The notes beneath the pieces were generated by a model. The model was not told where the DNA came from. It saw only the letters and a list, made by a program, of their open reading frames with translations, and ran no database searches. 64,000 bases of DNA. Origin: Planctomycetota bacterium (lineage in GTDB: Bacteria; Planctomycetota; UBA1135; GCA-002686595). The translations under genes were made by a program, and so were the position numbers. Shown here piece after piece: positions 45,750 to 55,999 of this stretch. The stretch is from the NCBI GenBank assembly GCA_026692665.1, contig JAPLOF010000063.1, forward strand, positions 62,001-126,000. Direction: 5' to 3'. Each line of letters opens with the position of its first letter. Position 1 is the first letter of the stretch.

Positions 45750-46571
45750 TCACGGCGCGGGCAGATGTTCTCGCAGGAAACCGCCGACGCGCTCGACCCA
45801 TTCGGCGCGCTGGAGGAACCCGCCGCCATTGTGCCCGCCGCGGGTCTCCAGGAACTCCTTGGGACCGGAATGGGCCGCGTACAGCCGCTCTCCGTGCCGG
45901 AAGGGGACCAGCTGGTCCTCCGGGCTGTGCGCCACGAGGAAGGGCACCCGCAGCGCGCCGATCTTCGCCAGCGAGTCGTACTTCGTCCGCGTGATCCAGC
46001 GCACGGGCAGCCAGGGGTAGACCTCGGCACCCACGTCGGCCAGCGCGGTGAACGTGTCCTCGACGAACAGCACCGCGCACGGACGGCGCCGCGCCAGCTC
46101 GACGGCGACCGCGCCACCCATCGACTCGCCGTAGATCACGGTCCGCCGCGGCTCGAACCCGCGCGCCGCGAGGTGGTCCAGGGCGGCCTCGCCGTCCAGG
46201 TAGGTGCCCTCCTCGGACAGGATGCCGCGGCTCTTGCCGTACTGGCGGTAGTCGAAGAGCAGGACGTCGTAGCCGAGCAGGCGAAAGGTCTGCGCGAGCG
46301 GCAGGCGGCCCTCGATGTTGCCGGCGTTGCCGTGGCAGACGAGGACCGCGCCGCGCGCGTTCTCGGCCTTCACGTGCCAGGCGTGCACGGTCGCGCCGTC
46401 GCGGGTGGTGAGCTCGAGGTCCTCGAACGGCGCCGCGATCGCCGCCGGCGTGAGGGTCGGCGGCGGGCCCGGGTACCACACGAGCCGGTCCTGGAAGAAC
46501 CAGGCGACGAAGCACAGCAGCGCGTAGAGCGCGATGGGGATCCCGAAGAGCCAGAAAAGCACGCGCCGCAT
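45750..46571 (-). CDS. alpha/beta hydrolase (BEM46/ABHD13-like), membrane anchored
   Basis: A 273-residue protein with an N-terminal membrane segment (RVLFWLFGIPIALYALLCFV) and an alpha/beta hydrolase domain. The oxyanion segment is LVCHGNAGNIEGR, the nucleophile Ser150 in YGESMGGAVAV, the acid in AHSPEDQLVPFRHG and the histidine in RGGHNGGGF. The catalytic Ser-Asp-His triad is therefore complete. Members of this group are poorly characterised esterases or thioesterases. The start was moved from an upstream in-frame ATG to MRRVLF, where the membrane anchor begins. Confidence 0.88.
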   Translation of the reverse strand: MRRVLFWLFGIPIALYALLCFVAWFFQDRLVWYPGPPPTLTPAAIAAPFEDLELTTRDGATVHAWHVKAENARGAVLVCHGNAGNIEGRLPLAQTFRLLGYDVLLFDYRQYGKSRGILSEEGTYLDGEAALDHLAARGFEPRRTVIYGESMGGAVAVELARRRPCAVLFVEDTFTALADVGAEVYPWLPVRWITRTKYDSLAKIGALRVPFLVAHSPEDQLVPFRHGERLYAAHSGPKEFLETRGGHNGGGFLQRAEWVERVGGFLREHLPAP

Positions 46572-46908
46572 CTTGGGTTCCCGCTCAGCGCGCCGCGAGG
46601 TTCTTCCGGGCCGGTGCCGCCGGGCGGAGGGCCCGGGCGTCGACGGCCCCAGCATGGGACGTGCGCGGCAGAGTGGGCCGACGGCTTCGGGTGCGTGTGC
46701 GCTTCTCGATCGCGGCGAAGATCTCCAGTCCGTCCGTTCCGGCCCCGAATCGGTGGGTGTCCGCGCGGAACTCCATCACGGCCCGGCGCTGCGGCCGACC
46801 GGGATGCTGCGGGTGGAGCAGGGGCGGGTCGCGACGGCAGACCATGGGTCGCTCATTGTCCCAGGGACGCGGGACGTCCGCCAAGTGCCCGCGCTACGCT
46901 ACGCCGCC
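46572..46908. other. 337-base divergent region before hydrolase and FHA genes
   Basis: Apart from the doubtful 99-residue minus-strand frame, this region holds no gene I can support. It must contain a promoter for the FHA gene on plus. No tRNA, riboswitch or terminator-like hairpin is obvious. Confidence 0.4.
46585..46884 (-). CDS. possible small basic protein (99 aa)
   Basis: A 99-residue open frame ending 13 bases before the alpha/beta hydrolase start on the same strand. Third codon positions are mostly G or C, and its middle (RAVMEFRADTHRFGAGTDGLEIF) looks protein-like. The C-terminal half is basic and low-complexity. No family recognised. It could be the first gene of the hydrolase operon or a chance frame in GC-rich DNA; I consider it doubtful. 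Confidence 0.3.
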   Translation of the reverse strand: MADVPRPWDNERPMVCRRDPPLLHPQHPGRPQRRAVMEFRADTHRFGAGTDGLEIFAAIEKRTRTRSRRPTLPRTSHAGAVDARALRPAAPARKNLAAR

Positions 46909-47712
46909 ATGCCGCGGATCTACGTGTTGTCCGGCCCCGACCTCGGGCGCAACTTCGACGTGCGGGCGGGCGCGACGTTCGGGCGCACGGCCGAGTGTCA
47001 GGTGACGCTGCGCGATCCTTCGGTCAGCCGGGTTCACGCGCGGCTCGAGGAGGCTGCGACCGGCTGGCGCGTCGTCGACACCGGGTCGCGGAACGGACTC
47101 TTCGTGCGCGACGAGCGCGTGCCCGCGGCGGAGATCGAGGACGGGGACGAGTTCCGCCTGGGCGAGGTGCTCCTGCGCTTCCGTGCCGATGCGCCGAGCG
47201 CGAAGCCGGCAGGATCCGCGCCGGAGCCCGCGCCGGTGGCGGCACCCGAGATCCAGTTCCACGCGCGCGGAGCCTCGCGTGCCGCTCCCGCGGAGGAACC
47301 GGCGGACATCGAGTTGGAAGGGGACTGGTCCGAGCCCGTCGCCGCGCCCCAACCGGCGGCACGTCCGCGCGCGCCGGAGGGGATCGGGCACGTCGCGGCT
47401 GGCGCTCCCACCGCGACCCCGCGCTCCGTCGCGAACGACCAGCGGGCGAGGAAGCTCGCCGCGGCCGGCGTCGCGCCGACCGGGCGCACGGGCGCGGCCG
47501 ATGCGCGCGGAATCTTGCAGTTCAACCGGGTCGCGCAGCAGGAGGGCCTGCTGCGGCAGGAACTCGACCAGCAGCCGACGTGGCTGCGCTTCGCCGTCGT
47601 CGGGATCGTGCTGGCCGTCGTCGCGGCTCTGGCGTGGCTCGGCTACCAGGCCGCGACCGCGACGAAGGCGCGGCTCGCGCCGTCGGAGTCCGTCGAGGAC
47701 GAGGGGCGCTGA
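46909..47712 (+). CDS. FHA-domain protein with C-terminal membrane anchor
   Basis: A 267-residue protein. Residues 1-95 are an FHA phosphothreonine-binding domain: FGRTAECQVTLRDPSVSRVHARL (seen as GRTAECQVTL and SVSRVHARL) and the SRNGLFVRDERV loop. A Pro/Ala-rich linker (about 100-180) leads to a charged region and a single membrane helix (FAVVGIVLAVVAALAWLGYQ, about 232-251), giving a cytosolic FHA tethered to the membrane. It would dock to threonine-phosphorylated partners, but no kinase gene is adjacent. The ATG chosen gives the FHA domain its first strand. Its stop is 27 bases from the stop of the convergent selenoprotein gene. Confidence 0.9.
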   Translation: MPRIYVLSGPDLGRNFDVRAGATFGRTAECQVTLRDPSVSRVHARLEEAATGWRVVDTGSRNGLFVRDERVPAAEIEDGDEFRLGEVLLRFRADAPSAKPAGSAPEPAPVAAPEIQFHARGASRAAPAEEPADIELEGDWSEPVAAPQPAARPRAPEGIGHVAAGAPTATPRSVANDQRARKLAAAGVAPTGRTGAADARGILQFNRVAQQEGLLRQELDQQPTWLRFAVVGIVLAVVAALAWLGYQAATATKARLAPSESVEDEGR

Positions 47713-47738: not shown

Positions 47739-47999
47739 CTAACCGCCGCCGGAGAGCGAGCGCTTGTGCAGCGAGTTCACGACGTCCGCCGGATCGGGCC
47801 AGCCGCCGCCGAAGAGCGACGACAGGAGTCCCTTGCTCTTCGAGGCGACGAGCTCGCCGTCGGCGAGGACGTCGAACTGACCGGTCGAACCCTTCCGGAT
47901 CTCGACGTCGAGGCCGAGATCTTCACGGATCTTCGCGGCGAGACCCGCCGCGCGACGTTCGTACCCTCAAGCCGTGCAGTAGAGGATCTGGATCTTCAT
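47739..47999 (-). CDS. selW: SelW-type (Rdx family) selenoprotein, in-frame UGA read as selenocysteine
   Basis: An 86-residue protein if TGA at 47967-47969 is read as selenocysteine at position 11. The motif is YCTAUGY, C-x2-U, the redox site of SelW/SelT/SelH (Rdx) proteins; Cys8 and Sec11 follow the first beta strand MKIQILY. The following 75 residues keep the Rdx pattern: ...GLAAKIREDLGLDVEIRKGSTGQFDVLADGELVASKS..., seen as DVEIRKGSTGQFDVLADGEL. Without recoding the gene would end after ten residues. A SECIS-like hairpin lies directly after the UGA. The frame ends at TAG 47739, convergent to the FHA gene. Function: thiol/selenol redox protein, probably cytosolic. Confidence 0.88.
47934..47952 (-). 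promoter_or_regulatory. bacterial SECIS-like hairpin after the selenocysteine UGA
   Basis: On the minus strand, 14 bases after the UGA, a perfect 7-base stem (CGCGGCG with CGCCGCG) encloses the loop GGUCU. The apical GGUCU is the same as in the E. coli fdhF SECIS element that SelB binds, where it lies at nearly the same distance from UGA (about 19-23 bases against 22-26 here). No bulged U is obvious, so it is a SECIS-like element; SelB recognition in this organism is inferred. Confidence 0.75.
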
Positions 48000-52027: not shown

Positions 52028-52518
52028 GCACGCGCTCCGTCATCGGCCTGGTCGCGATCACGGCGGCTGCTGGTCTGCTCACGGGCTGCGTGATGTTCCA
52101 GTTCGAGCGCGACATCATCGAGCGCCGGCCGGAGGCCGAAATCGTGTCGAGCTTCACCATCGGCAGCACGCATCTCGGCGACGTCCTGGACGTCATGGGC
52201 GCGCCGACCGAAGTGTGGGAGGGCGCGGACGGCGGCGCCGCGCTGGCCTACGGCGGCCTGCGTTCCCGCGGCTGGAACGTGGACGTGAGCGTGCCGGTCG
52301 CCGACGCCGGGTCCGCCAACCTCTCCTACACGGACACCACGGCGCGCACGGAGGGATTCATGCTGCTCTTCGGCCCCGAAGGTCACCTCGAGATCGTGCG
52401 CGCGGGCAACCTCGCGGACCTGCGTCGGACGTACGCGCGCCGCCGACCGGCGTCGCTCCAGGACGAGCCTGCGGCCGGTGAGAAGGCGCCGGGCGGAAAA
52501 CCGGCCGGAGCGCCATGA
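52024..52518 (+). CDS. small BamE/SmpA-like lipoprotein (second)
   Basis: A 164-residue lipoprotein starting at TTG, overlapping the previous stop. The signal ends AAAGLLTGC (lipobox). The core SFTIGSTHLGDVLDVMGAPTEVWEG repeats the G-x-(S/T)-x4-DV-x3-(L/M)GAPTEV pattern of the first lipoprotein, so the two are tandem paralogues. Beta strands (GGLRSRGWNVDVSVPVADAG) follow, and the C-terminus is Pro/Ala/Lys-rich. Its stop overlaps the ATG of the molybdopterin oxidoreductase. Function unknown; an outer-membrane assembly or lipid role is only inference. Confidence 0.7.
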   Translation: MSTRSVIGLVAITAAAGLLTGCVMFQFERDIIERRPEAEIVSSFTIGSTHLGDVLDVMGAPTEVWEGADGGAALAYGGLRSRGWNVDVSVPVADAGSANLSYTDTTARTEGFMLLFGPEGHLEIVRAGNLADLRRTYARRRPASLQDEPAAGEKAPGGKPAGAP

Positions 52519-54524
52519 CCGGGGCGGGCGAGGGCGCGGTCCACCGCACGACTTGTCCGCTCGACTGCCCGGACGCCTGCGGCGTGCTCGTCGAGACGGA
52601 TGCGGCCGGCGCGTTCGCGAGCTTGCGCGGCGATCCCTCCCACCCGTGGTCGCGCGGCGTCCTGTGCGGCAAGACGGCCCTGTACGGCGAGGTCGTGCGC
52701 GCGCCGAATCGCCTGCTCCACCCGCTCGTGCGGCGGCACGGGGAGCTCGTGCGCGCGTCCTGGGACACGGCGCTCGACCTCGTCGCGGAAAAGGTCGGGC
52801 CGCTCGCCGGGCGCGACGTCCTGGCGCTCTCGTACGGCGGATCCATGGGGCTCGTGCAGCGCAAGTTCCCGAACCGCGTGATGAACGCGCTGGGCGCGAC
52901 GCACCACGACGGCGGCATCTGCGACGCGACGGCGGACGCCGGCTACCAGAGCGTGCTCGGCCGCTGTCTCGGCCCCGACATGGACGACGTCGATGGCTGC
53001 GACCTCCTGTGTCTTTGGGGCTGCGACATGGCGCGCACCGTGCAGCACCTGCAGCCGCGCGCCAAGCGCCTGCAGGAGCGCGGCGTGCCCGTCGTCGTGA
53101 TCGACGTCTGGCGCACGGACACGGCGCGCGACGTCGAGCGCCGCGGCGGACGTGCGTTCGTGATCCGGCCCGGGACGGACGCGGCGCTGGCGCTGTGTCT
53201 CGCCCGGCTGGCGTTCGAGCGCGGCGCCGTGGATCGCGCCTACCTCGCCGCCCAATGCGTGGGCGCGGACGAGTTCGAACGCCACGTGCGCGGCGCGCAC
53301 GACGTGGCGTGGGCCGCGCGGATCACGGGTCTCGCGGTGGACGAGATCGAACAATTGGCTGCCCTCCTCTTCCGCTCGCGGAAGCCGTTCGTGAAGACCG
53401 GCGTGGGTTGGACGCGTCGGCGGAACGGCGGGAACTCGATGCGTGCGGTCTGCGCACTCGCCGCGATCCTCGGCCACGGCGACCGTGTGCACTTCGAGAG
53501 CTACGCGCATTTCGGCCTGGCCGAGGAAGTCGTGCACCGTCCGGACCTGCGGCCGATGGGGGCGCCGACGGAGGAGGTGAGCCAGGTCGGGCTCGGGAAG
53601 ATCCTCGAAGAGGGCCGGTTCCGCGCCGTGTTCGTGTGGTGCCACGACCCGGCGGTCACGATCCCCGACAGCGCGCGTTTTCGCCGTGGATTCGCGCGCG
53701 ACGATCTCTTCACGGTCGTCCACGACCATTTCCTGACCGAGACGGCGGCGCTGGCGGACGTGGTGCTGCCCGCGACGACGTTCGTCGAGCACGCCGACGT
53801 CTACCGCAGCTACGGTCACCGCTGCGTGCAGCGCGCACGGGCCATCGCGAAGGCGCCGGGCGAGGCGCGCTCGAACGTGGACACCTTCGCTGGCCTCGCG
53901 AAGCGTCTCGGGCTGCCGCGCGCGACGTGGGACGTCAGCGCCGATTCGCTGTGCGACGAGTTGCTCGCCGCCTCGCGTTCACGCTTCACCGACGACGAGT
54001 TCGCGCGCATCGCGTGCGGCGAGCCGGTGAAGCTCGCGCCCCGCGCTTTCGGCGGGTGGGGCACCCCGAGCGGCCGCATCGAACTCGCGAGCAGTGCTCT
54101 CGAGCGCGCCGGCTCGATGCGCCTGCCGACGTACGTGCCCGAGGATCTGCGCGGCGAGCCCGGCGAGTTCGAGCTGATCTGCTCGCCGTCCGTGCACACG
54201 CACAATGCGACGTTCTCGCACAGCGGCCGCCACGCGCAGAAAGCCGGCGCGCCGCGCGCATTCCTCCACCCGCGAGACCTGGCGCGCCTGGGCCTTGCGG
54301 CCGGGGGCCGAGTTCGGCTCGCGAACCGCCGTGCCACGGTCACGCTGGCCGTCGCCCCGGACGACGGCGTGCCGCAGGGCCGGGTGCGCGTCGACGGCCT
54401 GCCGCGGGGCGCGGACGTGCCGGAAGGGCACGGCGTCAACGCGCTCGTCGCCGGGGACGTCAGCGACATCGGCGGGGGAAACGTCCTGTACAGCACGCGC
54501 TGCGACCTGTCCGCGGCCGATTGA
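52515..54524 (+). CDS. molybdopterin oxidoreductase (DMSO reductase family)
   Basis: A 669-residue enzyme of the DMSO reductase superfamily. The N-terminal [4Fe-4S] motif is CPLDCPDAC (Cys14, 18, 22) with the last ligand in VLCGK (Cys51). The molybdopterin-binding fold is visible in ALSYGGSMGLVQRKFPNRVM, DGGICDATADAGYQ (region that carries the Mo ligand) and WGCDMARTVQHLQPRAK. The C-terminal cofactor domain includes SVHTHNATFSHSGRHAQ. No Tat signal or membrane partner gene is nearby, so a soluble formate- or thiosulfate-type oxidoreductase in the cytosol is possible; substrate unknown. Coupled by ATGA to the lipoprotein before it. Confidence 0.9.
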   Translation: MTGAGEGAVHRTTCPLDCPDACGVLVETDAAGAFASLRGDPSHPWSRGVLCGKTALYGEVVRAPNRLLHPLVRRHGELVRASWDTALDLVAEKVGPLAGRDVLALSYGGSMGLVQRKFPNRVMNALGATHHDGGICDATADAGYQSVLGRCLGPDMDDVDGCDLLCLWGCDMARTVQHLQPRAKRLQERGVPVVVIDVWRTDTARDVERRGGRAFVIRPGTDAALALCLARLAFERGAVDRAYLAAQCVGADEFERHVRGAHDVAWAARITGLAVDEIEQLAALLFRSRKPFVKTGVGWTRRRNGGNSMRAVCALAAILGHGDRVHFESYAHFGLAEEVVHRPDLRPMGAPTEEVSQVGLGKILEEGRFRAVFVWCHDPAVTIPDSARFRRGFARDDLFTVVHDHFLTETAALADVVLPATTFVEHADVYRSYGHRCVQRARAIAKAPGEARSNVDTFAGLAKRLGLPRATWDVSADSLCDELLAASRSRFTDDEFARIACGEPVKLAPRAFGGWGTPSGRIELASSALERAGSMRLPTYVPEDLRGEPGEFELICSPSVHTHNATFSHSGRHAQKAGAPRAFLHPRDLARLGLAAGGRVRLANRRATVTLAVAPDDGVPQGRVRVDGLPRGADVPEGHGVNALVAGDVSDIGGGNVLYSTRCDLSAAD

Positions 54525-54622: not shown

Positions 54623-55999
54623 ATGCTCCTCCCGCGCATCGCGCCGCTCGGCGCCTTCCTTTTCCTGCTTCCCGCCTGCCAGACCGAGGTGTTCGGCGGC
54701 AAGGACACCTACTCCCCCCGCGTGGAGACGAAGGACTACGCGCAGGAGAAGATCGACGCCGGCCCGCGGAAGGGCGACGTCTACGGTCCCGGCCAGCGCG
54801 ATCCGGGCGCGAGTTCCGTCGCGTCGTTCGCGGACGCCCTGCTCGCGTTCCAGCCGAGGCCCGCGAGCGTCGCGTGCCTGCCGCTCGTCACCTACGACCT
54901 CAAGACGGGCAAGCCGTGGGTCTCGGAGCTCGGCCTCGGCACCGCCGACGCCGTCGCGCACAGCCTGCGCGAGAAGGGCTACGCCGGTCAGACCTTCGGC
55001 ACCGAAGAGGTGGGGCTGCGCCTCGCGCAGACGAACGTGTCGCGCGCGACGTTCACCACGATCGAGTCCGTCGCGGGCAGCGCCGGACGCATCGGCGCCG
55101 ACGTCGTCGTCTTCGGCACGATCAAGCGCCGCGACCGCGCGGGCGCGCTCGACCGCGACGTGTTGACGTGCGAGCTGCAGGCCTACGACGTCGCTGGGCG
55201 TCGCATCGCCACGTCGACGCGCTGGGAAGTGCCCAGCGACGACCCCTCACTGCGCCGGACCTGGGACCTGGCGCAGGCCGAGAGCACGTGGATGCCGGAC
55301 TCGCGCTACGGCCTGCCGTCCGCCACGCCGGGCCTCGCGGGCGAGTTGCGTCGCGTCTGGGACGACCTCGCCGCGGCGCTCGGGCGCACGATCGATCCCG
55401 CGCAGATCACGGGCGCGATCTACGTCGCCCCGCTCGACGTGGCCGCGTTCGCGCCGCAGCTCGCGACGCTGCGCTCGGCGCAAGGCGCCTACCTGTCCGA
55501 ACTGTCCCTGCGCCTCGAGTCCGCCCGAGCCGCGAACACGAGCCCGAATCTCTCGGGCTCGATCGTGCTGAACGGCACGGAGTACCCGAGTTTTCAGGCC
55601 GCCGAGGCCTACCTGGTCCAGCTCGCGGAGAGCTTCCAGGCGACGCCCGCGGCGCACTTCGCGCAGAGCTTCTCGTCGGGGTTCGGTGACGCGATCCGTG
55701 CGCGCGTCAACCCCACGGGCAAGCCCGTGAACGATCTCGCGGCGATCCGCCCGGTGGACCGCGTGCTCATCGAGGGCGAGCTCGCGCAAGGCGGTCTCGC
55801 GCGCAGTTCGGCCTCGCGCGACGCGCTGAAGAACGCCGGCGTCGGCCTCGTGGTCGCGCCGCGTCTCGAGCGGATCGGCGACGCGCTGCAGATCCGCGCG
55901 GACGCGTACGACACCGCCAAGGGCGCCGTCGCGGGCGACGGGACGGCCTCGATCCCCGCGAACTTCACCCCCGAACTGAGTCGCGCGCTGGGCCAGTGA
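54623..55999 (+). CDS. lipoprotein with FlgO-like domains
   Basis: A 458-residue lipoprotein with a signal ending in the lipobox LLPAC. The segment SFADALLAFQPRPASVACLPLVTYDL and following repeat (ADAVAHSLREKGYAG, GADVVVFGTIKRRDRAG) resemble FlgO/COG3018-type flagellar and outer-membrane proteins. A second similar unit begins at about 335 (YPSFQAAEAYLVQLAESF). No peptidoglycan-binding motif seen. It is followed by an LpoB-like and a COG3014-like lipoprotein, a grouping seen in other phyla for envelope-associated systems. The ATG was chosen for its signal; 98 bases precede it after the oxidoreductase gene. Confidence 0.72.
   Translation: MLLPRIAPLGAFLFLLPACQTEVFGGKDTYSPRVETKDYAQEKIDAGPRKGDVYGPGQRDPGASSVASFADALLAFQPRPASVACLPLVTYDLKTGKPWVSELGLGTADAVAHSLREKGYAGQTFGTEEVGLRLAQTNVSRATFTTIESVAGSAGRIGADVVVFGTIKRRDRAGALDRDVLTCELQAYDVAGRRIATSTRWEVPSDDPSLRRTWDLAQAESTWMPDSRYGLPSATPGLAGELRRVWDDLAAALGRTIDPAQITGAIYVAPLDVAAFAPQLATLRSAQGAYLSELSLRLESARAANTSPNLSGSIVLNGTEYPSFQAAEAYLVQLAESFQATPAAHFAQSFSSGFGDAIRARVNPTGKPVNDLAAIRPVDRVLIEGELAQGGLARSSASRDALKNAGVGLVVAPRLERIGDALQIRADAYDTAKGAVAGDGTASIPANFTPELSRALGQ

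Follow-up and report, generated by a model that had tools for sequence, protein, structure and literature searches.

A small minus-strand gene in a planctomycete genome, here called rdx, almost certainly encodes a thioredoxin-fold selenoprotein of the Rdx family, with an in-frame UGA predicted to be read as selenocysteine (Sec) through SelB and a hairpin with a GGUCU loop. It lies in a 64,000-nucleotide stretch of contig JAPLOF010000063.1, the whole of which we refer to as the window. The source genome is a 4.58 Mb draft in 64 contigs, about 90% complete. We established the gene, its homology, the decoding machinery, and the hairpin computationally, and from the last two and from conservation we infer that Sec is incorporated.

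A reading frame interrupted by one UGA

Translation agreed exactly with the coordinates and description in the earlier note: an ATG on the minus strand, 10 codons, TGA, 75 further codons, and a TAG at 47739. This TGA is the only one in the frame. With TGA read as U, the product is MKIQILYCTAUGYERRAAGLAAKIREDLGLDVEIRKGSTGQFDVLADGELVASKSKGLLSSLFGGGWPDPADVVNSLHKRSLSGGG. See Table 1 for the coordinates of all features. A glycosyltransferase gene (48014 onward, minus strand) ends 14 nt before the start of rdx, and an FHA-domain gene (46534–47712, plus strand) converges on rdx from the opposite side. A genome of the same genus (locus L026, the same sequence as L033 of genome G001) keeps the order glycosyltransferase, rdx, FHA protein, alpha/beta hydrolase. 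Farther along the window, 52515–54524 on the plus strand encodes a 669-aa molybdopterin oxidoreductase (PF00384) that carries an Fe4S4 domain at its N terminus; no UGA read-through is needed to keep this frame open.

Table 1. Features of the rdx gene in window coordinates
Feature	Position	Strand	Details	Evidence
Rdx-family selenoprotein CDS (predicted)	47739..47999	minus	86 residues; ATG at 47999, stop TAG 47741-47739	Translation, family matches, homologues
In-frame UGA, predicted selenocysteine codon	47967..47969	minus	Residue 11, the U of C-T-A-U	UGA shared by nearly all homologues found
Cys8 codon	47976..47978	minus	Partner Cys of the CxxU motif	Translation; C8 invariant in 19 aligned sequences
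Bacterial SECIS upper hairpin	47934..47952	minus	7-bp stem CGCGGCG/CGCCGCG, apical loop GGUCU 47945-47941	Fold, synonymous-shuffle test, covariation

The frame downstream of the UGA had been described as protein-like. Homology does continue past the UGA, as shown below, but openness is worthless at the 71% GC of the window, because 269 of its 872 TGA triplets (31%) are likewise followed by at least 75 open codons. We therefore rejected the open frame as evidence, and the case for a selenoprotein gene is carried by homology and the SECIS element without it. The same abundance of long frames speaks for the simplest alternative, in which translation truly ends at the UGA and what follows is a pseudogene or a chance frame in GC-rich DNA.

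Rdx-family membership and predicted fold

For the family searches, U was read as Cys. The product matches Pfam PF10262 (Rdx) at E = 6.7e-12 and 45.9 bits, against a gathering cut-off of 22.6, over positions 1–72 of the 74 in the profile, and NCBIfam TIGR02174 (CXXU_selWTH) at 41.1 bits against a cut-off of 34.2. Both matches span the UGA, which argues against a true stop, and both bear out the original reading of a C-x2-U motif of the Rdx family. The AlphaFold model (pLDDT 86) has a strand-helix-strand-strand-strand-helix order, with the redox motif C8-T-A-U11 between the first strand (residues 3–7) and the first helix (14–28), just ahead of the latter; residues 51–70, which hold an insertion discussed below, are less certain (67–68). 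The best Foldseek matches are solved SelW-related bacterial Rdx structures, with TM-scores of 0.71–0.81. We assigned the protein to the Rdx family on its score above the PF10262 cut-off, the placement of the CxxC/CxxU motif between strand 1 and helix 1, and the SelW-like thioredoxin fold. Bacterial SelW-like selenoproteins (PF10262; TIGR02174) share this thioredoxin-like fold, an N-terminal CxxU, and a SECIS element directly 3' of the UGA.

The narrower label of a SelW-type protein holds at the level of the Rdx family but not for SelW proper. The protein belongs to a clade of its own, and its best sequence match among solved structures is MIEN1/C17orf37 (Rdx12; PDB 2ljk, E = 5.4e-8), whose CEPCGFE aligns with CTAUGYE. 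Human MIEN1 differs in having Cys in place of Sec and in lacking the GGGWP insertion. Mouse SelW matches at only E = 0.041 and ranks behind both MIEN1 and the bacterial Rdx structures by fold as well. We therefore rejected orthology to mammalian SELENOW and consider "Rdx-family selenoprotein" a better label than "SelW." The model for the Campylobacter SelT/SelW/SelH protein (NF041051) matches over nearly the full length at E = 8.5e-13, but its 48.4 bits fall short of the curated cut-off of 88, and we rejected membership in that equivalog.

Conservation across the UGA

Next to the source genome, 60 relatives were searched, and 43 of the 61 genomes have an Rdx match, almost all with exactly one internal TGA. 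Public genome records supplied ten further loci: three from Planctomycetota, three from Actinomycetota, two from Myxococcota, and one each from an uncultured bacterium and an entry labelled Proteobacteria. Identity to the window protein runs from 76% in the same genus down to 32%, and I5, C8, the Sec/Cys position 11, A17, L20, S53, and P68 are invariant in an alignment of 19 sequences. UGA-bearing homologues from the same genus, family, and order and from other phyla align both across and beyond the UGA. Cys occupies the Sec position in a CGGC-type Rdx protein of genome G032 (L062:501-719, contig G032:C13) and in the solved CxxC relatives in the PDB. The alignment proposed in the earlier note as a check thus yields Sec and Cys forms alike. 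Of the findings it had named as refuting, none appeared: sel genes are present, homologues align across the UGA, and no orthologues ending before it were found.

Past the UGA, dN/dS is about 0.45 against the same-genus orthologue and 0.68 for a more distant pair, although these are short genes. Values below 1, together with a protein conserved beyond a UGA that is retained in nearly all homologues from other genera and phyla, make a true stop very improbable, and the SECIS hairpin, which is conserved and covarying, weighs against it further.

A conserved SECIS hairpin downstream of the UGA

The earlier note had not looked for a SECIS element. The loop of the rdx hairpin begins 21 nt past the UGA, and the hairpin folds at -18.1 kcal/mol. 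A published model of bacterial SECIS elements calls for a loop of 3–9 nt, an upper stem of 4–16 bp, G in the first two loop positions, a distance of 16–37 nt from the UGA, and an MFE of -7.5 kcal/mol or lower (PMC13188914); the rdx hairpin, with its 5-nt loop and 7-bp stem, falls within all of these limits. The fdhF gene of E. coli has the same five loop letters, GGTCT, 18 nt past its UGA. Folding energy relative to shuffled sequences is unexceptional for so GC-rich a stretch (z = -0.24). Since this is not significant, it was dropped as evidence, and we judged the element by its position, loop letters, and conservation. No Rfam model matched within the window at the gathering threshold, a result from which we draw no conclusion.

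By position and loop letters, the rdx UGA stands alone: among all 872 TGA triplets in the window, no other is followed at the same offset by a GGT/AGT loop flanked by six or more of seven stem pairs. The loop codon in the 36 UGA-bearing homologues is GGT (19) or AGT (17) and nothing else. At the other codons of these genes, GGT makes up 11% of Gly and AGT 4% of Ser, giving a naive probability of ~1e-42 that ignores the kinship of the sequences. The U of this codon falls within a hairpin loop in 36 of 36 UGA homologues, against 17.8 expected under synonymous recoding. Across 20 sequences, 96.4% of stem cells are paired and both sides have changed at five of the seven pairs; none of 500 shuffles reached this covariation score, and slid controls scored far lower. 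The sole Cys homologue among the relatives (L062) has GCG at the loop codon, so that UGA and signal are absent together in this single case. In three Actinomycetota genes (Thermoleophilia, Gaiellaceae; L029, L030, and L031), U is followed by one additional residue (CPVUSGY), and the AGU loop codon sits exactly one codon farther downstream, 24 nt past the UGA rather than 21 nt.

Selenocysteine machinery and UGA usage

The earlier note had taken the gene to imply SelA, SelB, SelC, and SelD, and selA, selB, selD, and tRNA-Sec are indeed all in the genome. On contig 48, selA scores 470.9 bits and selD 318.3 bits. On contig 51, selB scores 309.6 bits, or 335.4 with a second piece, against a cut-off of 242.25; the match covers model positions 1–359 and 536–581, with the middle of SelB outside it. 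The tRNA-Sec is on contig 7 (73.9 bits, anticodon TCA). The selD gene (L063:650-1660, minus strand) has an in-frame UGA within its N-terminal motif, YANCAGUAAKMPIG, and SelD is thus itself a predicted selenoprotein; Sec-containing SelD is common to many bacteria.

A UGA that is in frame and read through could also mean that the codon is generally reassigned in this genome, for example to Trp or Gly. We rejected this reading as having a negligible probability: TGA is the stop in eight of nine window genes checked, the full Sec machinery is present, and residue 11 aligns with the Cys of CxxC homologues. The same-genus rdx orthologue itself terminates in UGA. The rdx UGA, being an ordinary stop codon elsewhere, is therefore read in context rather than reassigned. 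That a sequencing or assembly error turned TGC or TGT into TGA in a Cys-type gene is conceivable for a 64-contig draft but hardly credible here, as the TGA is shared by the same-genus genome and dozens more and recurs in the source genome's second Rdx gene, always accompanied by the GGU/AGU loop codon.

In our preferred reading of rdx as a selenoprotein gene, SelB would deliver Sec-tRNA(UCA) to codon 11, with the GGUCU-loop hairpin a short way into the coding sequence beyond the UGA as its guide, and translation would continue to the TAG. The C-x-x-U redox center of the finished protein would sit in the loop that joins strand 1 to helix 1. Given what is established about the Rdx family, the product probably acts as a thiol/selenol oxidoreductase, in disulfide or glutathione-linked exchange.

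Relation to known selenoproteins

Bacterial SelW-like selenoproteins were described by 2005–2006 and are abundant (PMC1088965; PMC1794560); the family was the most abundant in a Sargasso Sea selenoprotein survey (PMC1088965) and its Cys homologues are scarce in organisms that use Sec (PMC1794560). A complete Sec machinery and selenoproteins were reported from Planctomycetes in 2016 (PMC4807772). Among the open PMC literature we found no paper on SelW-like proteins in Planctomycetota, which is not proof of novelty. Strong computational evidence places rdx as a fairly ordinary addition to a well-known bacterial selenoprotein family, and it leaves the understanding of Sec decoding and of Rdx proteins unchanged. 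It is the kind of gene that gene callers and standard annotation drop, and SelW genes of Epsilonproteobacteria were missed entirely by annotation (PMC4607533). The homologue set provides a clean, covariation-supported SECIS element. Furthermore, selA is above the cut-off in 59 of the 61 genomes (genus, family, and order); with the Rdx matches reported above, nearly all containing UGA, this indicates that the use of Sec, with one or two Rdx proteins encoded through UGA, is widespread across this order of planctomycetes.

Two Rdx clades

Our tree separates the window clade (11 rows, support 98/95), all CxxU-G and mostly with GGGWP, from a SelW-like clade (22 rows, support 90/92). Relative to the SelW-like paralogues, the window clade has an insertion of ~7 residues, with GGGWPD where the paralogues have RFPAYQEI. 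Placement of MIEN1 in the tree was abandoned, as its branch was too long (3.16). Two Rdx genes occur together in the source genome (G000), G002, G032, G041, and G052. It is possible, though we consider it doubtful, that the GGGWPD clade represents an undescribed Sec-Rdx subfamily with a distinct function, centered on Planctomycetota, existing beside a separate SelW-like selenoprotein of the same genomes and under stronger pressure to keep Sec; the last point is suggested because G032 keeps Sec in its GGGWPD-clade protein and has Cys in its other Rdx.

The second Rdx gene of the source genome, also UGA-bearing, is on contig 22 (L002:1498-1719, match at 54718). Its product is SelW-like and includes VKVSIQYCVQUNYLPQ, and the gene has the same GGUCU hairpin loop past its UGA.
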